Of a DNA stretch of 64,000 bases, positions 3,094-56,671 are shown piece by piece. The position numbers were made by a program, and so were the translations under genes. The DNA is taken from contig NZ_CP096972.1 of NCBI RefSeq assembly GCF_024758725.1, forward strand, positions 1,346,001 to 1,410,000, given 5' to 3'. The stretch's first letter is position 1; each line of letters opens with the position of its first letter. The notes below the pieces were generated by a model. It had not been told where the DNA came from and searched no databases. It saw only the letters and a list, made by a program, of their open reading frames with translations. The stretch is from Sphingomonas sp. SUN039 (lineage in GTDB: Bacteria; Pseudomonadota; Alphaproteobacteria; Sphingomonadales; Sphingomonadaceae).

Positions 3094-4070
3094 TGCGGTC
3101 GCTGTTACAGTTTGAGCAAGGCGGCACGCGGGGCGTTGCCGCGCTCGATGAAGCTGGCAAGGCGTGGCGGCTCGAAGGTGTGTCTTCGACGCGCGAGCTG
3201 GCGCTGCAAGCGTTGTCGTCGGGCGTCGGGCTGCGTGAGCTCGCGCAGCAGCGCGCCAATGACGCGATCGATCTGACCACTGTCACGCTTTTGTGTCCCA
3301 TCGACCATGCCGACCCGGCGCACCTGCTCGTGTCGGGGACCGGCCTCACGCATCTTGGCTCCGCCGAGGGCCGCGACAAGATGCACCGCGCGGCGGCGGC
3401 GGGCGAGACACTGACAGATTCGATGCGGATGTTCCTGATGGGGATGGAGGGCGGCAAGCCCGATTCCGGTGCGATCGGTGTCCAGCCTGAGTGGTTCTAC
3501 AAGGGCGACGGCGATATCCTCGTCGCGCCGGGTGCGCCGCTCACTGCCCCCGGCTTTGCCGAAGACGGGAGCGAGGAGCCCGAGATTGCGGGGGTCTATC
3601 TGATCGACCCGGATGGTCGCCCGGTCCGGCTCGGCTTCGTCCTCGGCAATGAGTTCTCGGACCATGTCGTCGAACGGACCAATTATCTGTGGCTTGCGCA
3701 CTCGAAGCTGCGGCAGGCAGCGCTCGGTCCAGAACTGCTGCTCGGCGATCTGCCCGACAGCGTGCGCGGCACCAGCCGGATCCTGCGCGACGGCAAGGTA
3801 CTGTGGGAAAAGGCATTCCTGTCGGGCGAGGCCAATATGTCGCACAGCATCGCCAACCTCGAACATCATCATTTCAAATGCGCGCATTTCTGCCGCCCGG
3901 GCGATGTGCATGTCCATTTCTTCGGCACGGCCACCCTTTCGTTCAGCGACGGCGTGACCACGCAGGACGGCGACATTTTCGAGATCGAGGCGGACGCCTT
4001 CCGGCTGCCGGTGCGTAACCTCCTGGTGCGCGAAGCCGCCTGCGCGCCGGTAGAAGTTCGCGCGTTATGA
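3090..4070 (+). CDS. 2-keto-3-deoxy-pentonate dehydratase, FAH superfamily (AraD1/XylX type)
   Basis: Fumarylacetoacetate-hydrolase-fold enzyme of 326 residues, of the group that includes Caulobacter XylX and AraD1/GguC proteins. It should dehydrate 2-keto-3-deoxy-L-arabinonate or -D-xylonate to 2-oxoglutarate semialdehyde, feeding the dehydrogenase encoded just upstream. Family-like segments are VSGTGLTHLGSA, GVQPEWFYKGDG, the acidic EEPEIAGVY stretch, GNEFSDHVVE and the C-terminal HFCRPGDVHVHFFGT. The frame is open much further upstream, but only from ATG 3090 does the protein look like the family, and this ATG overlaps the previous stop (ATGATG across TGA). The Azospirillum L-arabinose route uses a DapA-type enzyme at this step, so this operon has the alternative FAH enzyme. 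Confidence 0.87.
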   Translation: MMRSLLQFEQGGTRGVAALDEAGKAWRLEGVSSTRELALQALSSGVGLRELAQQRANDAIDLTTVTLLCPIDHADPAHLLVSGTGLTHLGSAEGRDKMHRAAAAGETLTDSMRMFLMGMEGGKPDSGAIGVQPEWFYKGDGDILVAPGAPLTAPGFAEDGSEEPEIAGVYLIDPDGRPVRLGFVLGNEFSDHVVERTNYLWLAHSKLRQAALGPELLLGDLPDSVRGTSRILRDGKVLWEKAFLSGEANMSHSIANLEHHHFKCAHFCRPGDVHVHFFGTATLSFSDGVTTQDGDIFEIEADAFRLPVRNLLVREAACAPVEVRAL

Positions 4071-51937: not shown

Positions 51938-52990
51938 TCAACCCGCATTTTCGTTGTCCGCTATCTCGAACAGCCCGTGGCGCTTCATCGCGTGGCGCAG
52001 CTGATCGTAGCTGAGCGCCACCGCTTTCGCTGCCGCACGCTGATTGTACCGGCAGCGCTTCAATGCCTCGGCCAGGATATCGCGTTCGTATTCGGCCACC
52101 GCAGCCCGGAAATCACGGACATCGGCAACGCTGCGCGCAATCGCGGTCGCGCTCATTGGCACGAGCGCCCCAGAGACGACCGGCGCGGCTGCTGCCCCCG
52201 ACACCGCTTTGGGCATCCACGGCGAGTCGAACGGGTCGAAATCGATCTCGTCGATCGCCTTGTTCTCGTCCTCCCAGCGATAGACGGCGCGTTCGACGGT
52301 GTTGCGGAGTTCGCGTACATTGCCCGGCCAGTCGTAACGTTCGAGCACTTCCATCGCCCCGGTCGAAAAGCCCGGCCATTTGCGCCAGTCGAGTTCGGCC
52401 GCCATGCGTCGCCCGAAATGGTCGGTCAGCACCGGCACATCACCCGTCCGCGCGCGCAACGGCGGCAAGGTGACGACCTCGAATGCCAAGCGGTCGAGCA
52501 GGTCGGCACGGAACCGGCCCTTATCGACCAGCGACGGCAAATGCTCGTTGGTCGCGGCAACGATGCGCACGTCGACGCGCAGTGGCTTGTTCGAGCCGAT
52601 CCGGGTGACCTCGCCATATTCGACCGCGCGCAGCAGCCGTTCTTGCGCGCCCGCCGAAAGCGTCGCGAGTTCGTCGAGGAACAATGTGCCCCCGTCGGCC
52701 TCCTCGAAACGCCCCTCACGCGCCTTGGTCGCGCCGGTGAAAGCACCCGCCTCGTGCCCGAACAGTTCGGCTTCGATCAGCGTCTCCGCGAGCGCGGCGC
52801 AGTTCATCGTGATCAGCGGGGCCGCCCAGCGTGGGCTGAGGCGGTGGAGACGTTCGGCAACCAGCTCCTTGCCCGTCCCCCGCTCGCCGATGACCAGCAC
52901 GGGGCGGTTCAACCCGGCGGCGCGACTGGCACGCTCGATCGAATCGAGAAAGGCGAATGACTCGCCAACGACTTGATTGCCCCTGTCCAT
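51938..52990 (-). CDS. pspF: PspF, sigma-54-dependent activator of the phage-shock operon
   Basis: A 350-residue bacterial enhancer-binding protein without a receiver domain. The AAA+ domain starts at once (ESFAFLDSIERAS), with Walker A GERGTGKE near 34-41, the sigma-54 contact loop GAFTGA near 85, Walker B GGTLFLDELATL and WPGNVRELRNTVERAVYRW. A C-terminal Fis-type helix-turn-helix (EALKRCRYNQRAAAKAVALSYDQLRHAMKR) binds enhancers. PspF is normally held inactive by PspA. It is divergent from the psp genes and faces the sigma-54 promoter at 53079. Confidence 0.95.
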   Translation of the reverse strand: MDRGNQVVGESFAFLDSIERASRAAGLNRPVLVIGERGTGKELVAERLHRLSPRWAAPLITMNCAALAETLIEAELFGHEAGAFTGATKAREGRFEEADGGTLFLDELATLSAGAQERLLRAVEYGEVTRIGSNKPLRVDVRIVAATNEHLPSLVDKGRFRADLLDRLAFEVVTLPPLRARTGDVPVLTDHFGRRMAAELDWRKWPGFSTGAMEVLERYDWPGNVRELRNTVERAVYRWEDENKAIDEIDFDPFDSPWMPKAVSGAAAAPVVSGALVPMSATAIARSVADVRDFRAAVAEYERDILAEALKRCRYNQRAAAKAVALSYDQLRHAMKRHGLFEIADNENAG

Positions 52991-53078: not shown

Positions 53079-53095
53079 TTGGCACGCATTCTGCA
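53079..53095 (+). promoter_or_regulatory. Sigma-54 promoter of the psp operon
   Basis: TTGGCACGCATTCTGCA matches the sigma-54 consensus TTGGCACRNNNNYTGCW at every position, with GG and GC exactly 12 bases apart. It lies about 100 bases downstream of the divergent pspF start and 62 bases before the TonB-C-like gene, which is therefore the first gene of the PspF-controlled transcript. The interval 52991-53078 should contain PspF enhancer sites, which I cannot delimit. Confidence 0.9.
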
Positions 53096-53156: not shown

Positions 53157-53612
53157 ATGTACACCGCTACCGCCCCCAGCTTTCGCACCACGGCAACTGC
53201 CGTTGCGGCGTCGATGCTCGGCACCGCGCTGATCTTCGCGGCCCCGCAGGCGGCGCAAGCCTCCCCCAAAAGCGATTTCGTGCGCAACGTCGAAGCGCAG
53301 CTGAAGACCGAGGCCTATGCCCCCGCCGATCTGTCGGGGGTTGCGACCATCGCGGTCCGGATCGACGCCGACGGCAAGGTGCTAAGCGCCGACGTCGCCG
53401 GTTCGAGCGGCCACAAGCTGCTGGATGACGACGCACTGCTGACGGCAAAATCGGTCGTCTTTCCCAAGGGCGCGGCCCGCACGGTCGCCGTTGTGATGAA
53501 GTACGGCAACGTCGCCAAGCCCGGCGAGGCCCAGTCGGTCGCGCTCGTCAACCGCTACGTCAACGCCAAGGGCGAAGCGCTCGCACAGAATCCCGCCAGC
53601 CCCGTCGGCTGA
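53157..53612 (+). CDS. Periplasmic TonB-C-like protein, first gene of psp operon
   Basis: A 151-residue protein with a signal peptide (TTATAVAASMLGTALIFAAPQAAQA) and a TonB C-terminal-like domain: GVATIAVRIDADGKVLSADVAGSSGHKLLDDDALLTAKSV, the beta-alpha-beta pattern of energy-transducer tails. It has no membrane anchor beyond the signal and no ExbBD partner nearby, so it is unlikely to be a real TonB. The perfect sigma-54 promoter lies 62 bases upstream, which implies induction by PspF with envelope stress. ATG 53157 is chosen because the signal peptide begins there. Confidence 0.8.
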   Translation: MYTATAPSFRTTATAVAASMLGTALIFAAPQAAQASPKSDFVRNVEAQLKTEAYAPADLSGVATIAVRIDADGKVLSADVAGSSGHKLLDDDALLTAKSVVFPKGAARTVAVVMKYGNVAKPGEAQSVALVNRYVNAKGEALAQNPASPVG

Positions 53613-53697: not shown

Positions 53698-54366
53698 ATG
53701 GGTATCTTCTCCCGAACCCGCGACATCGTCGCCGCCAACTTCGCCGACTTGCTCGACAAGGCCGAAGACCCGGCGAAGATGATCCGCATGATCATCCTCG
53801 AAATGGAGGAGACGTTGGTCGAGGTCCGCGCGACCGCCGCGCGCACCATTGCCGACCAGAAGGAAATGCGCCGCCATATCGGCAAGCTCCAGTCGCTCGA
53901 AGCGAACTGGGAAGAAAAGGCCGAGCTCGCGCTGTCGAAGGACCGAGAGGATCTCGCCAAGGCCGCGCTGGTCGAAAGGCAGAAGGCGACCGACCTGATC
54001 GAAAGGATGCAGGCCGAACTCGCCATACTCGACGATGCGCTGAAAGCGTCGGAGGGAGATATCGCCAAGCTCCAGTCGAAGCTGCGCGATGCCCGCAGTC
54101 GCCAGTCGGCGATCGCGACGCGGATGGAAACCGCGCATCAGAGCATCCGCGTCCGCGAAGCCTATTCGGGCGAGCGCGCGCAGGACGCCTTCTCGCGCTT
54201 CGAAGTGCTCGAAAAGCGTGCCGACCTGGCCGAGGGCCGCGCCGAGGCGCTGGCGATGGGTGCCACCAAAACGCTCGACGAGGAAATCGACGAGCTGAAA
54301 TCATCGGAAAAAGTCGATGCCGCGCTCGAAGCGCTGAAGGCAAAGGCCGCAGGAAAGGCGAAGTAA
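53698..54366 (+). CDS. pspA: Phage shock protein A
   Basis: A 222-residue coiled-coil peripheral membrane protein of the ESCRT-III/Vipp1 superfamily. The N-terminal amphipathic helix MGIFSRTRDIVAANFADLLDKAEDP is followed by long helices (MIRMIILEMEETLVEVRATAARTIADQK ...). It inhibits PspF at rest and, on envelope stress, oligomerises on damaged inner membrane to preserve the proton gradient. ATG 53698 follows an AAAGG site at nine bases. One base separates its stop from pspB. Confidence 0.95.
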   Translation: MGIFSRTRDIVAANFADLLDKAEDPAKMIRMIILEMEETLVEVRATAARTIADQKEMRRHIGKLQSLEANWEEKAELALSKDREDLAKAALVERQKATDLIERMQAELAILDDALKASEGDIAKLQSKLRDARSRQSAIATRMETAHQSIRVREAYSGERAQDAFSRFEVLEKRADLAEGRAEALAMGATKTLDEEIDELKSSEKVDAALEALKAKAAGKAK

Positions 54367-54367
54367 G

Positions 54368-54592
54368 ATGGAAGACGTCCTTCTCCCCATCGTCATCGTC
54401 GGGATGCTGTTCATCGGGATGCCGTGGGTCATTCTCCACTACGTCTCCAAATGGAAGCAGGCGAAAACGCTCACCGTCGATGACGAAAACCTGCTCGACG
54501 ATCTGCACGATACCGCCCGCCGCCTGGAAGACCGCGTGGTCACGATCGAGCGCATCATGACCGCTGATAACCCCAATTGGAAAAACGGCTGA
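54368..54592 (+). CDS. pspB: Phage shock protein B
   Basis: A 74-residue bitopic membrane protein: one helix (LLPIVIVGMLFIGMPWVILHYV) and a cytoplasmic coiled-coil tail with LEDRVVTIERIMTADNPNWKNG, the PspB ending (compare ERILDAEHPNWR in Escherichia coli from memory). It acts with PspC to sense stress and recruit PspA. The tail motif 'LE-R---IER(I)--AD' recurs in the four small proteins that follow. Confidence 0.93.
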   Translation: MEDVLLPIVIVGMLFIGMPWVILHYVSKWKQAKTLTVDDENLLDDLHDTARRLEDRVVTIERIMTADNPNWKNG

Positions 54593-54614
54593 ACCGCCGC
54601 TTAGGAGACCTGCA

Positions 54615-54992
54615 ATGACCGCACGTCGTACATCCTTCTACCTCGACAAACAGAACGCCAAATGGCTGGGCGTGTGTTCGGGGATCGCCGACTACACCGG
54701 CATCGACCTGACAGTCGTTCGCGTCGTCACAGTGCTCGGCACCGTGTTCGGATCGGGCGCGCTGCTGGTCGCCTATCTGATCATCGCGTGGATGGCCCCG
54801 GCCAAGCCGGTCGGCCTCTACGACGACGCCGATGACGCCAAATTCTGGCAAGGCGTGCGCCAGTCGCCGTCGCGCTCGACCCGTGATGTCCGCGCCAAGT
54901 TCCGCGATCTCGACCGTCGGCTTGCCGATGTCGAAACCTATTACACCAGCCGCAACTCGTCGCTCGCCGACGAGATCGACAGCTTGCGCTAG
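54615..54992 (+). CDS. pspC: Phage shock protein C
   Basis: A 125-residue inner-membrane protein with the PspC domain (FYLDKQNAKWLGVCSGIADYTGIDLTVVRVVTVLG and a membrane helix ending in AYLIIAWMAP) and a cytoplasmic helical tail (FRDLDRRLADVETYYTS) that ends in LADEIDSLR. The same terminal peptide ends the next protein, which suggests that segments were copied within the operon. ATG 54615 follows a TAGGAGA site. Confidence 0.94.
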   Translation: MTARRTSFYLDKQNAKWLGVCSGIADYTGIDLTVVRVVTVLGTVFGSGALLVAYLIIAWMAPAKPVGLYDDADDAKFWQGVRQSPSRSTRDVRAKFRDLDRRLADVETYYTSRNSSLADEIDSLR

Positions 54993-55013
54993 GGTGTCGG
55001 CAAAGGGGGAGTG

Positions 55014-55310
55014 ATGACAATGGAGCACGGAGCACCCGAGTTCATTATCGCGCTGGTGGCGATCAGCACCTTCGGCTGGATCGCGACGAGCTGGATCAGG
55101 GCTCGGCACGGCTACCCGGTCGAGGGCGAATGGGGCGGATCGGTCGCCAAGTCCGACCCGCAAGCCGACCGCAAGATCGAGCTGCTGTCGTCCGAGAGCG
55201 AGCGTCTGACCGGCCAGGTCGATCGCTTGCAGGAACGGATCGCGGTTCTCGAACGCATTGCCACCGACAAGCCCGCGCGGCTTGCCGAAGAAATCGATAG
55301 CCTGCGCTGA
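55014..55310 (+). CDS. PspB-like small membrane/coiled-coil protein 1
   Basis: About 98 residues. An N-terminal membrane helix (FIIALVAISTFGWIATSWI) is followed by a polar linker and a C-terminal coiled coil with VDRLQERIAVLERIATDKP and the ending LAEEIDSLR. GTG 55011, ATG 55014 and ATG 55020 are possible starts; GGGGGA at 55004-55009 fits ATG 55014 or ATG 55020. Its topology and tail copy PspB, and its last residues copy PspC. It is not a family I can name and probably serves as an extra partner of PspA or PspC. Confidence 0.8.
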   Translation: MTMEHGAPEFIIALVAISTFGWIATSWIRARHGYPVEGEWGGSVAKSDPQADRKIELLSSESERLTGQVDRLQERIAVLERIATDKPARLAEEIDSLR

Positions 55311-55336
55311 GCAGCTGACATCAAGGGACAACGACC

Positions 55337-55585
55337 ATGCAACACTGGATATGGGTTCTCATTCCGCTCGCGGCCATCGGCATCGCCCCGTTCAAGATGT
55401 GGCTTCGCCTCAAGGAACGGCAGCTCGAACAACAGTCGATGATGACCGCGGAAAAGACCGCGCAATACGCCGCGCATACCGAGCGGCTCGAGGAGCGCAT
55501 GCGCGTGCTCGAACGGATCGCCACCGACAAGGGGGTCAATCTGTCCGACGAGATCGAGGCGCTGCGCGACACGCCGCTAAATTGA
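55337..55585 (+). CDS. PspB-like small membrane/coiled-coil protein 2
   Basis: An 82-residue protein with a short membrane helix (IWVLIPLAAIGIAPFKMWL) and a strongly charged coiled-coil tail (TERLEERMRVLERIATDKG) ending LSDEIEALRDTPLN. AAGGGA lies eight bases before ATG 55337. The plan is that of PspB: one N-terminal span, coiled coil, VLERIATD motif. It follows the previous gene after 26 bases. Confidence 0.8.
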   Translation: MQHWIWVLIPLAAIGIAPFKMWLRLKERQLEQQSMMTAEKTAQYAAHTERLEERMRVLERIATDKGVNLSDEIEALRDTPLN

Positions 55586-55612
55586 CGCCAATTCCACTGG
55601 GGAGTGCATTCG

Positions 55613-55858
55613 ATGAATCCGTTTGAAATGGTTGTGCTGATCATCGCCATCGCGATGATCGGGAGCATTATCAAGGCACGATACGGCTTTTCCACCGACC
55701 GTATGGGACGCACAATTCCGACACGCTCGGATGCTGAGGCGGGCCGGTTGAAGGAGGAAATCGTCCAGCTGAAGGAGCGTATTGCGGTGCTCGAACGGCT
55801 GGCCACCGACGAAAATGGCGCACGCCTGCTCGATCGCGAGATCGAGAAGCTGCGGTGA
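55613..55858 (+). CDS. PspB-like small membrane/coiled-coil protein 3
   Basis: An 81-residue protein from ATG 55613 (GGGGAG at eight bases; a GTG three codons earlier lacks spacing). There is an N-terminal helix (FEMVVLIIAIAMIGSIIKA), a short linker with two Arg/Thr-rich turns, and a coiled coil LKEEIVQLKERIAVLERLATDE ending in EIEKLR. Its stop lies 14 bases before the ATG preferred for the next gene. Confidence 0.8.
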   Translation: MNPFEMVVLIIAIAMIGSIIKARYGFSTDRMGRTIPTRSDAEAGRLKEEIVQLKERIAVLERLATDENGARLLDREIEKLR

Positions 55859-55872
55859 CAGGAGCAATGGTC

Positions 55873-56115
55873 ATGGACAGTCTGACGCTGTATTTCGGCA
55901 TGGGAATGACCGCGCTGATCGCCAGCACCGTGCTCGGCCTGATCGGCCTCAAGGGCTTTACCGCCTGGATCGATCTGAAACGTGCCGAGATCGGCGCACG
56001 GGTCGAGGGAGCAATGCCCGTCTCGGGCCCGACGGTCGGCCAGCGCATCGATGTTGCCGACCTGAAAGAGCGCGTGCGGCGGTTGGAGGCGATCGCGGCG
56101 GGAGTGGATATCTAA
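55873..56115 (+). CDS. PspB-like small membrane/coiled-coil protein 4
   Basis: An 80-residue protein from ATG 55873, with AGGAG eight bases upstream (a GTG at 55855 overlapping the previous stop would add six residues). It has a long N-terminal membrane helix (LYFGMGMTALIASTVLGLIGL), then WIDLKRAEIGARVEGA and a coiled-coil end VADLKERVRRLEAIAAGVDI, the shortest version of the shared tail. It is the last member before a palindromic repeat. Confidence 0.78.
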   Translation: MDSLTLYFGMGMTALIASTVLGLIGLKGFTAWIDLKRAEIGARVEGAMPVSGPTVGQRIDVADLKERVRRLEAIAAGVDI

Positions 56116-56248: not shown

Positions 56249-56671
56249 ATGTCCCTGCCCGCTCTCTCCGATATTCGCGACGAATACGACTTCCTCGACG
56301 CCGACGACCGATATCGCCTGCTGATCGATCTGGGCCGCGATCTTCAGGCGATGCCCGATGCACTCAAGACCGACAGCACTTTGGTGCGGGGATGTTCGGC
56401 CAGCGTGTGGGTTTATCCGATGCGGGATGGGGACAAGCTCCATTTCCTCGCCGACTCCAATGCCGCGATCACCAAGGGGATCATCGCGCTGGTCCTGACC
56501 ACTGTTCAGGACCGGACCGCGACCGAGATCGTCGCGACCGACATTGCCGCCGAACTCGCCCCGTTCGACCTGTCGCGCCAACTGAGCTCGAACCGGACGC
56601 AGGGCATTCCGAACATGATCGCGCTGATCAAGTCGACCGCAGAGCGGCATCTGGTATCGCCGCCGTCATGA
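56249..56671 (+). CDS. sufE: SufE-family sulfur acceptor
   Basis: A 140-residue cytoplasmic protein that accepts persulfide from the cysteine desulfurase SufS for Fe-S cluster assembly. Typical blocks are IRDEYDFLDADDRYRLLIDLGRDLQAMP, the catalytic Cys in LVRGCSASVWV, the metal-free FLADSNAAITKGIIALVL, and IPNMIALIKSTAE. ATG 56249 starts right after the repeat. The stop overlaps the next gene (ATGA). Confidence 0.93.
   Translation: MSLPALSDIRDEYDFLDADDRYRLLIDLGRDLQAMPDALKTDSTLVRGCSASVWVYPMRDGDKLHFLADSNAAITKGIIALVLTTVQDRTATEIVATDIAAELAPFDLSRQLSSNRTQGIPNMIALIKSTAERHLVSPPS

Follow-up and report, generated by a model that had tools for sequence, protein, structure and literature searches.

A family-wide array of small membrane proteins behind pspABC in Sphingomonadaceae

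Signalling in the phage shock protein (psp) system is modelled on enterobacteria, which have one PspB and one PspC. The subject of this study is a set of four short extra genes that follow pspA, pspB and pspC in Sphingomonas sp. SUN039. They lie in the window, a 64,000 nt stretch of DNA (contig NZ_CP096972.1, positions 1,346,001 to 1,410,000) from a 3.53 Mb genome in one contig, and they belong to an array that recurs across the family Sphingomonadaceae. Zymomonas mobilis (ZMO1061-ZMO1065) is presumably a sphingomonad as well. Its psp genes rise under ethanol; in the accessible text of that study ZMO1061 and ZMO1063-1065 are named phage shock proteins, ZMO1062 is hypothetical, and extra tail genes are unmentioned (PMC3495753).

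The closest experimental systems concern PspC. When the Yersinia system is on, the C-terminal cytoplasmic domain of PspC binds PspA, and PspF is thereby freed (PMC5596341). The E. coli fragment PspC40-119 consists of one membrane helix plus the tail, contacts PspA via a leucine zipper and, when overproduced, induces psp without PspB (PMC3068692). The tailless PspC1-68 neither contacts PspA nor induces psp; it lowers the proton motive force, which PspB counteracts (PMC3068692). PspB duplicates in pspFABC operons are mentioned in one printed line from 2024, with AOL22920.1 as the example; the accessible text of that paper does not say how many there are, how they group, what type of tail they have or how far they range phyletically, nor does it mention PspB loss or stand-alone copies (PMC11237479). 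Such an array is not mentioned in the accessible text of PMC9239133, and searches of the open-licence literature found no account of the groups, of the type of tail, of PspB loss or of stand-alone copies. We found this lineage-wide expansion of a known system undescribed beyond that one line, and we infer its function.

The array in the window and in the family

On the plus strand of the window, pspA (53698..54366) scores 265.7 bits with TIGR02977 (cut-off 242.95), and pspB (54368..54592) scores 94.3 bits with PF06667 and 82.8 bits with TIGR02976, both above cut-off. pspC (54615..54992) scores 59 bits with PF04024 and 113.9 bits with TIGR02978 (cut-off 104), reaching the model end (121/121), and has a full C-terminal tail ending LADEIDSLR. 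Four genes follow on the same strand. Gene 1 (55011..55310, ATG at 55017) belongs to a group called alpha, with the juxtamembrane sequence IRARHGYPVEGEWGG and a PspC-type tail. Gene 2 (55337..55585), of group gamma, is the most PspB-like of the four and also has a PspC-type tail. Gene 3 (55604..55858, ATG at 55613), of group delta, starts MNPFEMVV and has stand-alone relatives in sister families. Gene 4 (55855..56115, ATG at 55873), of group epsilon, ends LKERVRRLEAIAAGVDI. A fifth group, beta, is absent from the window. As originally predicted, each gene encodes one N-terminal membrane helix plus a coiled-coil tail, judged by open reading frame (ORF) calls, hydropathy and, for alpha and gamma, structure models. 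The tail strings quoted in that prediction are present in the translations, and EIDSLR is the ending of both PspC and protein 1.

Family membership (family f1, Sphingomonadaceae) was assigned from the names of the most similar loci. PspB was found in 110/119 and 384/397 Sphingomonadaceae genomes in two samples. Eighty retrieved PspB loci plus the window made up a survey of 81 loci from 68 genera by our own count, which held about 342 extra genes (343 counted, one 'gamma' in locus L038 being a mislabelled PspC). As counted, there were no extra genes in 1 locus, one in 4, two in 4, three in 10, four in 28, five in 21, six in 8, seven in 4 and eight in 1. The groups are four clusters from one Louvain run, the largest of which was divided into alpha and beta by a motif rule; this boundary is imperfect, and some 'alpha' proteins bear beta-type motifs. 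Delta is present in 78 loci, epsilon in 72, gamma in 61 (60 without L038), beta in 49 and alpha in 45. Epsilon is the final array gene in 72/72 loci, delta lies ahead of epsilon in 70/70 and alpha ahead of beta in 26/27, while gamma is mobile (alpha ahead of the last gamma in 26/37). The five groups stand in a loose fixed order across the 68 genera, so that the survey of copy number and order called for by the original prediction found conserved synteny outside this strain. GYPLE(D/N)xWG is a group-specific conserved motif of alpha and beta.

Named relatives include Sphingomonas, Sphingobium, Sphingopyxis, Sphingorhabdus and others. Of 441 named relatives of alpha the best 80 were kept; in this sample, which was selected by alpha and is therefore no measure of its frequency, PspB was a partner in 80, epsilon in 79, delta in 75, beta in 65 and gamma in 61. 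The commonest order, PspB-alpha-beta-gamma-delta-epsilon, was found in 21 of these 80. Two consecutive pspC genes, the first tailless and the second full length, were observed in L038, L045 and L053. PspC matches its profile end to end in L051, L057, L077 and L081, and covers 41-126 in L052.

Local duplication had been proposed as the origin of the array. The genes are indeed tandem paralogues, but the duplications are old. The groups extend across the 68 genera, and the DNA shared between array genes in the window comprises stretches of at most 52 nt at 71-73% identity and one of 27 nt at 81%. The longest is a tail-coding repeat in gene 1 (55220..55271, plus strand) with copies at 55480-55531 (73%) and 55762-55813 (71%). 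That the strain recently duplicated or converted these genes was rejected, since the repeats are short and only 71-81% alike and the groups are shared across genera. The common EIDSLR ending, once taken as a sign of recent mixing of PspB and PspC tails, is a conserved PspC-type ending. In a genome of the same genus (L034) alpha is absent and beta is split between two frames (oriented 2325-2660), by a frameshift or an assembly error. Because the window has no beta and L034 has no alpha and a frameshifted beta, array genes come and go.

The membrane architecture is uniform. Hydropathy was calculated for 335/343 members that passed a length filter of 70-120 aa; 8 proteins lay outside it, and four over-long proteins and one very short one were noted among the out-of-range members. 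The first hydrophobic segment passes the 1.6 threshold in 100% of gamma (n = 80) and epsilon (n = 72), 99% of delta (n = 82), 98% of beta (n = 47) and 93% of alpha (n = 54) proteins; a second segment was found in 0/335. Charge flanks favour a cytoplasmic tail in beta (47/47), gamma (80/80), epsilon (66/72) and delta (65/82), and by the same measure in PspB (73/81). Single-chain AlphaFold2 models were made for alpha and gamma. Alpha is modelled as a membrane helix (7-30), a short hairpin and a second helix (48-96) with a mean pLDDT of 76 and pTM of 0.37, gamma as a single helix (3-78; pLDDT 75, pTM 0.31). A Foldseek search of the PDB with the alpha model returned nothing at E 0.001 or better.

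Homology of the tails to PspC and PspB

The tails of genes 1-3 carry the PspC ending L..EI[DE].LR. In 75 PspC tails aligned on the R..E motif, the residues are L at +10 (100%), E at +13 (97%), I at +14 (100%), L at +17 (100%) and R at +18 (94%). The same five positions are kept in 89, 89, 93, 100 and 95% of 49 beta tails and in 58, 71, 82, 83 and 75% of 56 alpha tails. The 82 gamma tails have 48% at +10 (otherwise V or I) and 41% at +13 (Q in 52), then 95, 96 and 93%. In delta the PspC-type ending is displaced, by two residues in the window protein. None of the PspC-type ending residues is present in the 81 PspB tails.

Profile comparison with hhalign gave 98.6-99.9% among alpha, beta, gamma and delta. 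These four groups scored 89.6-95.7% against PspC and 49-94% against PspB, while PspB against PspC gave 24 and 81% in the two directions. Reversed controls stayed at or below 21%, beta/PspC excepted. Epsilon scored 86-94% against gamma or delta and at most 37% against alpha or beta; in these comparisons it is tied to the set solely via gamma and delta.

The same relations were seen with family models. In a scan of 18950 NCBIfam models with 60 of 83 gamma, 60 of 83 delta, 32 alpha and 60 epsilon members, PspB was the most-matched family for gamma (43/60) and delta (21/60), and the PspC model was matched by 35/60 gamma and 6/60 delta proteins. Neither PspB nor PspC was matched by the 60 epsilon members. 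Two of these 60 match the mycobacterial PspM model, with a best E of 5e-4. The window gamma protein scores 25.4 bits with TIGR02976 (E 1.3e-5, under the cut-off of 51.7) and 16.6 with PF06667 (cut-off 25.6), and its residues 27-76 align to TIGR02978 72-121 (E 0.018). Protein 1 matches by its tail only (E 0.035) and scores below gamma; proteins 3 and 4 have no match in the Pfam/NCBIfam PspB models, and 0/4 pass a PspB cut-off. Across the family, a second PF06667 match was found in 10/110 PspB-positive genomes, 4 of them above cut-off.

A mixed profile was built from alpha-delta proteins of other genomes, with the window rows excluded, and run against the 594 window ORFs of at least 40 aa. Proteins 1, 2 and 3 came top (107, 71 and 62 bits), and PspB (19.5 bits) and PspC (17.8 bits) stood directly behind them. 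The best unrelated ORF reached 8.7 bits and protein 4 8.5 bits. When residues 1-30 were kept fixed and the remainder was shuffled 500 times per protein, the maxima for proteins 1-4 were 33, 16, 31 and 7 bits, compared with real scores of 106, 71, 61 and 8.6. An epsilon-group profile finds gene 4, with gene 2 as the second-best window match (25 bits); because window gene 4 is itself part of the profile, the score of gene 2 is the only independent one. Against solved structures, the PspB profile (best E 0.25) and the mixed profile (best E 0.0044, a prefoldin) found generic helical proteins only and no Psp protein.

The original prediction had called all four proteins PspB-like, which is half right, since the tails of genes 1-3 end like PspC and unlike PspB. 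The extra proteins resemble PspB (PF06667/TIGR02976) in being small, with an N-terminal membrane helix and an R[IV]..[LIV]E coiled-coil tail motif, and gamma and delta members match PspB models, a few of them above the Pfam cut-off. They also differ from PspB. In an alignment of 37 PspB sequences P19, H24 and Y25 are invariant and W20 nearly so, and this P-W...H-Y membrane exit is missing from the consensus of all five extra-group alignments; the NPxW-type end of PspB is absent too, with the PspC-type end in its place. Profile searches gave PspB similarity for proteins 1-3 and none for protein 4, where the prediction fails. That all four are PspB paralogues was rejected in this wording, because they fall below the PspB cut-offs, have the PspC-type ending in proteins 1-3 and include a protein 4 without detectable direct similarity to PspB or PspC. 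With PspC the extra proteins share the tail ending, epsilon excepted; they are unlike it in having no PspC domain, in being separate genes and in their group-specific juxtamembrane parts. The likeness of alpha-delta is to PspC40-119 (TIGR02978 72-121), that is, one membrane helix plus a homologous coiled-coil tail. From sequence comparison, tails shared with PspB and PspC, with a PspC-type ending, are well supported for alpha-gamma and, in displaced form, for delta.

Operon structure, natural losses and relatives elsewhere

The array is tightly packed. Among gaps measured after PspB in the 81 loci, 273/284 are at most 60 nt and 95 are overlaps; gaps from PspC to the array come from the 21 loci with a labelled PspC, and start codons were set by rule. 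In the window, a sigma-54-type promoter, TGGCACGCATTCTGCA (53080..53095, plus strand), was assigned by consensus match only, and pspF, encoding the sigma-54 activator (TIGR02974 475.4 bits, cut-off 443.55), lies at 51938..52990 on the minus strand. A sigma-54-like site was found upstream of pspA in 62/81 loci, and the pattern had 0 matches downstream of pspA in 345 kb of the same loci. The window thus shows the features of a PspF/sigma-54 operon, tight genes on one strand behind a sigma-54-type site with pspF adjoining, and the four extra genes are probably made together with PspABC from one such promoter. In nine locus pairs dN/dS was 0.03-0.62 for the extra genes and 0.04-0.40 for pspB. dS was saturated in two gene comparisons, which had pN/pS of 0.14 and 0.16; the ratio was below 1 in every comparison.

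Fourteen Sphingomonadaceae genomes without a PspB match were examined. Ten of them have neither PspA nor an alpha-delta match; these are not ten events, since they are spread over six genera only. The other 4/14 have a PspA-family match together with array genes. Two from one genus (G504 and G703) have the order pspA-pspC-gamma-gamma-delta with no pspB. In G060, pspA is followed by an 88 aa pspC that is tailless and above the PspC domain cut-off, then gamma and delta, again with no pspB; here gamma and delta bear PspC-type tails. We read these loci as PspB apparently lost twice and PspC apparently split once.

Relatives were also sought outside the family. The mixed alpha-delta profile matches 130/147 genomes of the order, comprising 86/86 Sphingomonadaceae (84 with at least two matches) and 44/61 others, of which 7 have two. 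In a sample of the class 12/289 genomes matched, 5 of them Sphingomonadaceae, and of the other 7 only G292 was strong; five further matched loci outside Sphingomonadaceae (L195-L199) have longer or unlike proteins. A stand-alone delta-like gene was found in 6/7 opened genomes of other families (G027, G029, G031, G033, G035 and G039), on another contig than pspB or more than 400 kb away; in G036, the seventh, one copy stands alone and another lies at psp. A sigma-70 gene precedes the stand-alone gene in three loci, by 33 nt in G036 (L188, 3896-4168), 1.7 kb in G033 and 3.5 kb in G027, the remaining coordinates being 4001-4222 in L187 and 4180-4404 in L184. Two tandem delta-like genes (3479-3709 and 3227-3421) adjoin a dUTPase gene in G292 (L194), a distant genome of the class, with no PspB match within the 8 kb. 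A second PspB-type gene near pspB (L203, 3171-3395; 36.5 bits, above the Pfam cut-off) was seen in G452 of family f5.

In family f8, 9/22 genomes matched, and 6 of 7 inspected have the gene 0.9-1.0 kb downstream of pspB. In a midpoint-rooted tree of 73 proteins from 17/81 loci plus 21 outside sequences, the copies at psp in f8 cluster with the stand-alone copies of that family (support 99) and away from Sphingomonadaceae delta. The tree is weak at its deeper nodes, neither gamma nor delta forms a clean clade, and the outside stand-alone genes G442 and G292 fall among delta with low support. Because the tree joins the f8 psp copies to the f8 stand-alone copies, a delta-like gene probably entered psp separately in f8.

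Two neighbours were noted. A small TonB_C-domain protein gene (53157..53612, plus strand; PF03544 31.8 bits, cut-off 24.6) may belong to the stress operon because it is placed between the sigma-54 site and pspA, and is possibly co-transcribed with the psp genes; 4/81 loci, the window included, have such a gene there. The array is followed by a sufE-type gene (56252-56671), a conserved neighbour, as a SufE match is present in 73/81 psp loci including the window.

Proposed role and its alternatives

The alpha-delta proteins share the architecture of PspC40-119, and the PspC of G060 that of PspC1-68. On this analogy we propose that the extra proteins are PspA-docking mini-adaptors, each a membrane helix plus a PspC-type tail, that act beside or instead of PspB and PspC, and we would give this about 0.58 probability. 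In the membrane they would associate with PspB and PspC, supplying additional or different tails for PspA to dock on. The switch would then be a mixed assembly whose composition sets sensitivity and PspA placement, and gamma and delta may take over after loss of PspB or of the PspC tail. A role together with PspA, PspB and PspC is likely, and the originally suggested array of alternative adaptors or hetero-oligomeric sensor may be right.

Several results weigh against this proposal. Epsilon terminates ahead of the PspC-type ending and reaches only 1.5% against PspB and 0.2% against PspC in hhalign. The hhalign stretches shared with PspB span 22-25 residues. Composition can make coiled-coil tails resemble each other: beta against reversed PspC gave 48 and 33%, and prefoldin scores 20.6 bits with the mixed profile, close to what PspB and PspC reach in the ORF ranking. 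The PspC model, which is the most-matched family for alpha, was reached by only 5/32 alpha proteins, and PF04024 was not matched by any of the four window proteins at E up to 10. In alpha the charge pattern is weak, with a more positive C-flank in 33/54, and the E. coli PspC tail was drawn as periplasmic with a possible topology switch (PMC3068692). The analogy with PspC40-119 is limited to overproduction, because the fragment at basal level fails in pIV-dependent induction and full-length PspC is needed (PMC3068692). Lineages with PspB loss number only two; the fourth PspB-less genome with a PspA match (G085) is broken by a contig end and has a divergent PspA match of 42.4 bits on another contig. 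On the evidence of a delta dN/dS as high as 0.62 in one pair, the frameshifted beta of L034, and L052, where pspB and pspC occur with zero extra genes found, single members are dispensable. The stand-alone copies, in turn, argue for delta-type use away from psp.

There are three rival explanations. The extra proteins could be downstream effectors or membrane scaffolds, comparable to PspG or PspD, that are made in bulk after the switch is on and whose tails keep PspA at the membrane without signalling. Their tightly packed position downstream of pspABC, the many copies, which suggest dose, and the single-helix gamma model, which suits a scaffold, fit such a role, but the alpha-gamma tails end as PspC, the signalling part, does, and a pure effector leaves unexplained why gamma and delta are kept in operons from which pspB, and in one case the PspC tail, is absent. 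We consider it rather unlikely. It is less probable still that the paralogues are redundant, each contributing little, in an ancient tandem array that gains and loses copies and in which a few tails suffice. Copy numbers of 0-8 over the 81 loci, the missing or frameshifted beta and the highest dN/dS would be expected of such an array; distinct groups in a largely fixed order over 68 genera, motifs specific to alpha and beta and dN/dS below 1 throughout would not.

The extra proteins might also have a role of their own, for example in the envelope or in division, and merely share the psp promoter, their tails being a general coiled-coil likeness. Relatives away from psp, behind sigma-70 genes or beside the dUTPase gene, and an FtsL model matched by 4/60 delta proteins speak for this. 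It is made very improbable by the absence of alpha-delta from 10/10 PspA-less genomes and their presence in 4/4 PspB-less genomes with PspA, by PspB and PspC being the next-best of 594 window ORFs, and by the likelihood that in f8 a gene of the stand-alone type entered psp a second time. The docking of PspA by mini-adaptors remains our preferred reading. A bolder version of it, which we regard as speculative, is a modular psp switch. In it, single-helix mini-PspC proteins, each with a membrane-side motif of its own, would combine into mixed assemblies and so adjust or specialise the release of PspA for different membrane insults; PspB, and once the PspC tail, would be dispensable, giving a natural split PspC, and a related stand-alone gene would have entered psp at least twice.

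Up to eight additional tail proteins are encoded in the psp operon of Sphingomonadaceae, which in a few members of the family lacks pspB. Should the extra proteins dock PspA, sensing by PspB and PspC and its relay to PspA would become testable through natural deletions, splits and swaps. The stress sensor of these bacteria may be a multi-part device, compared with the pair in E. coli.

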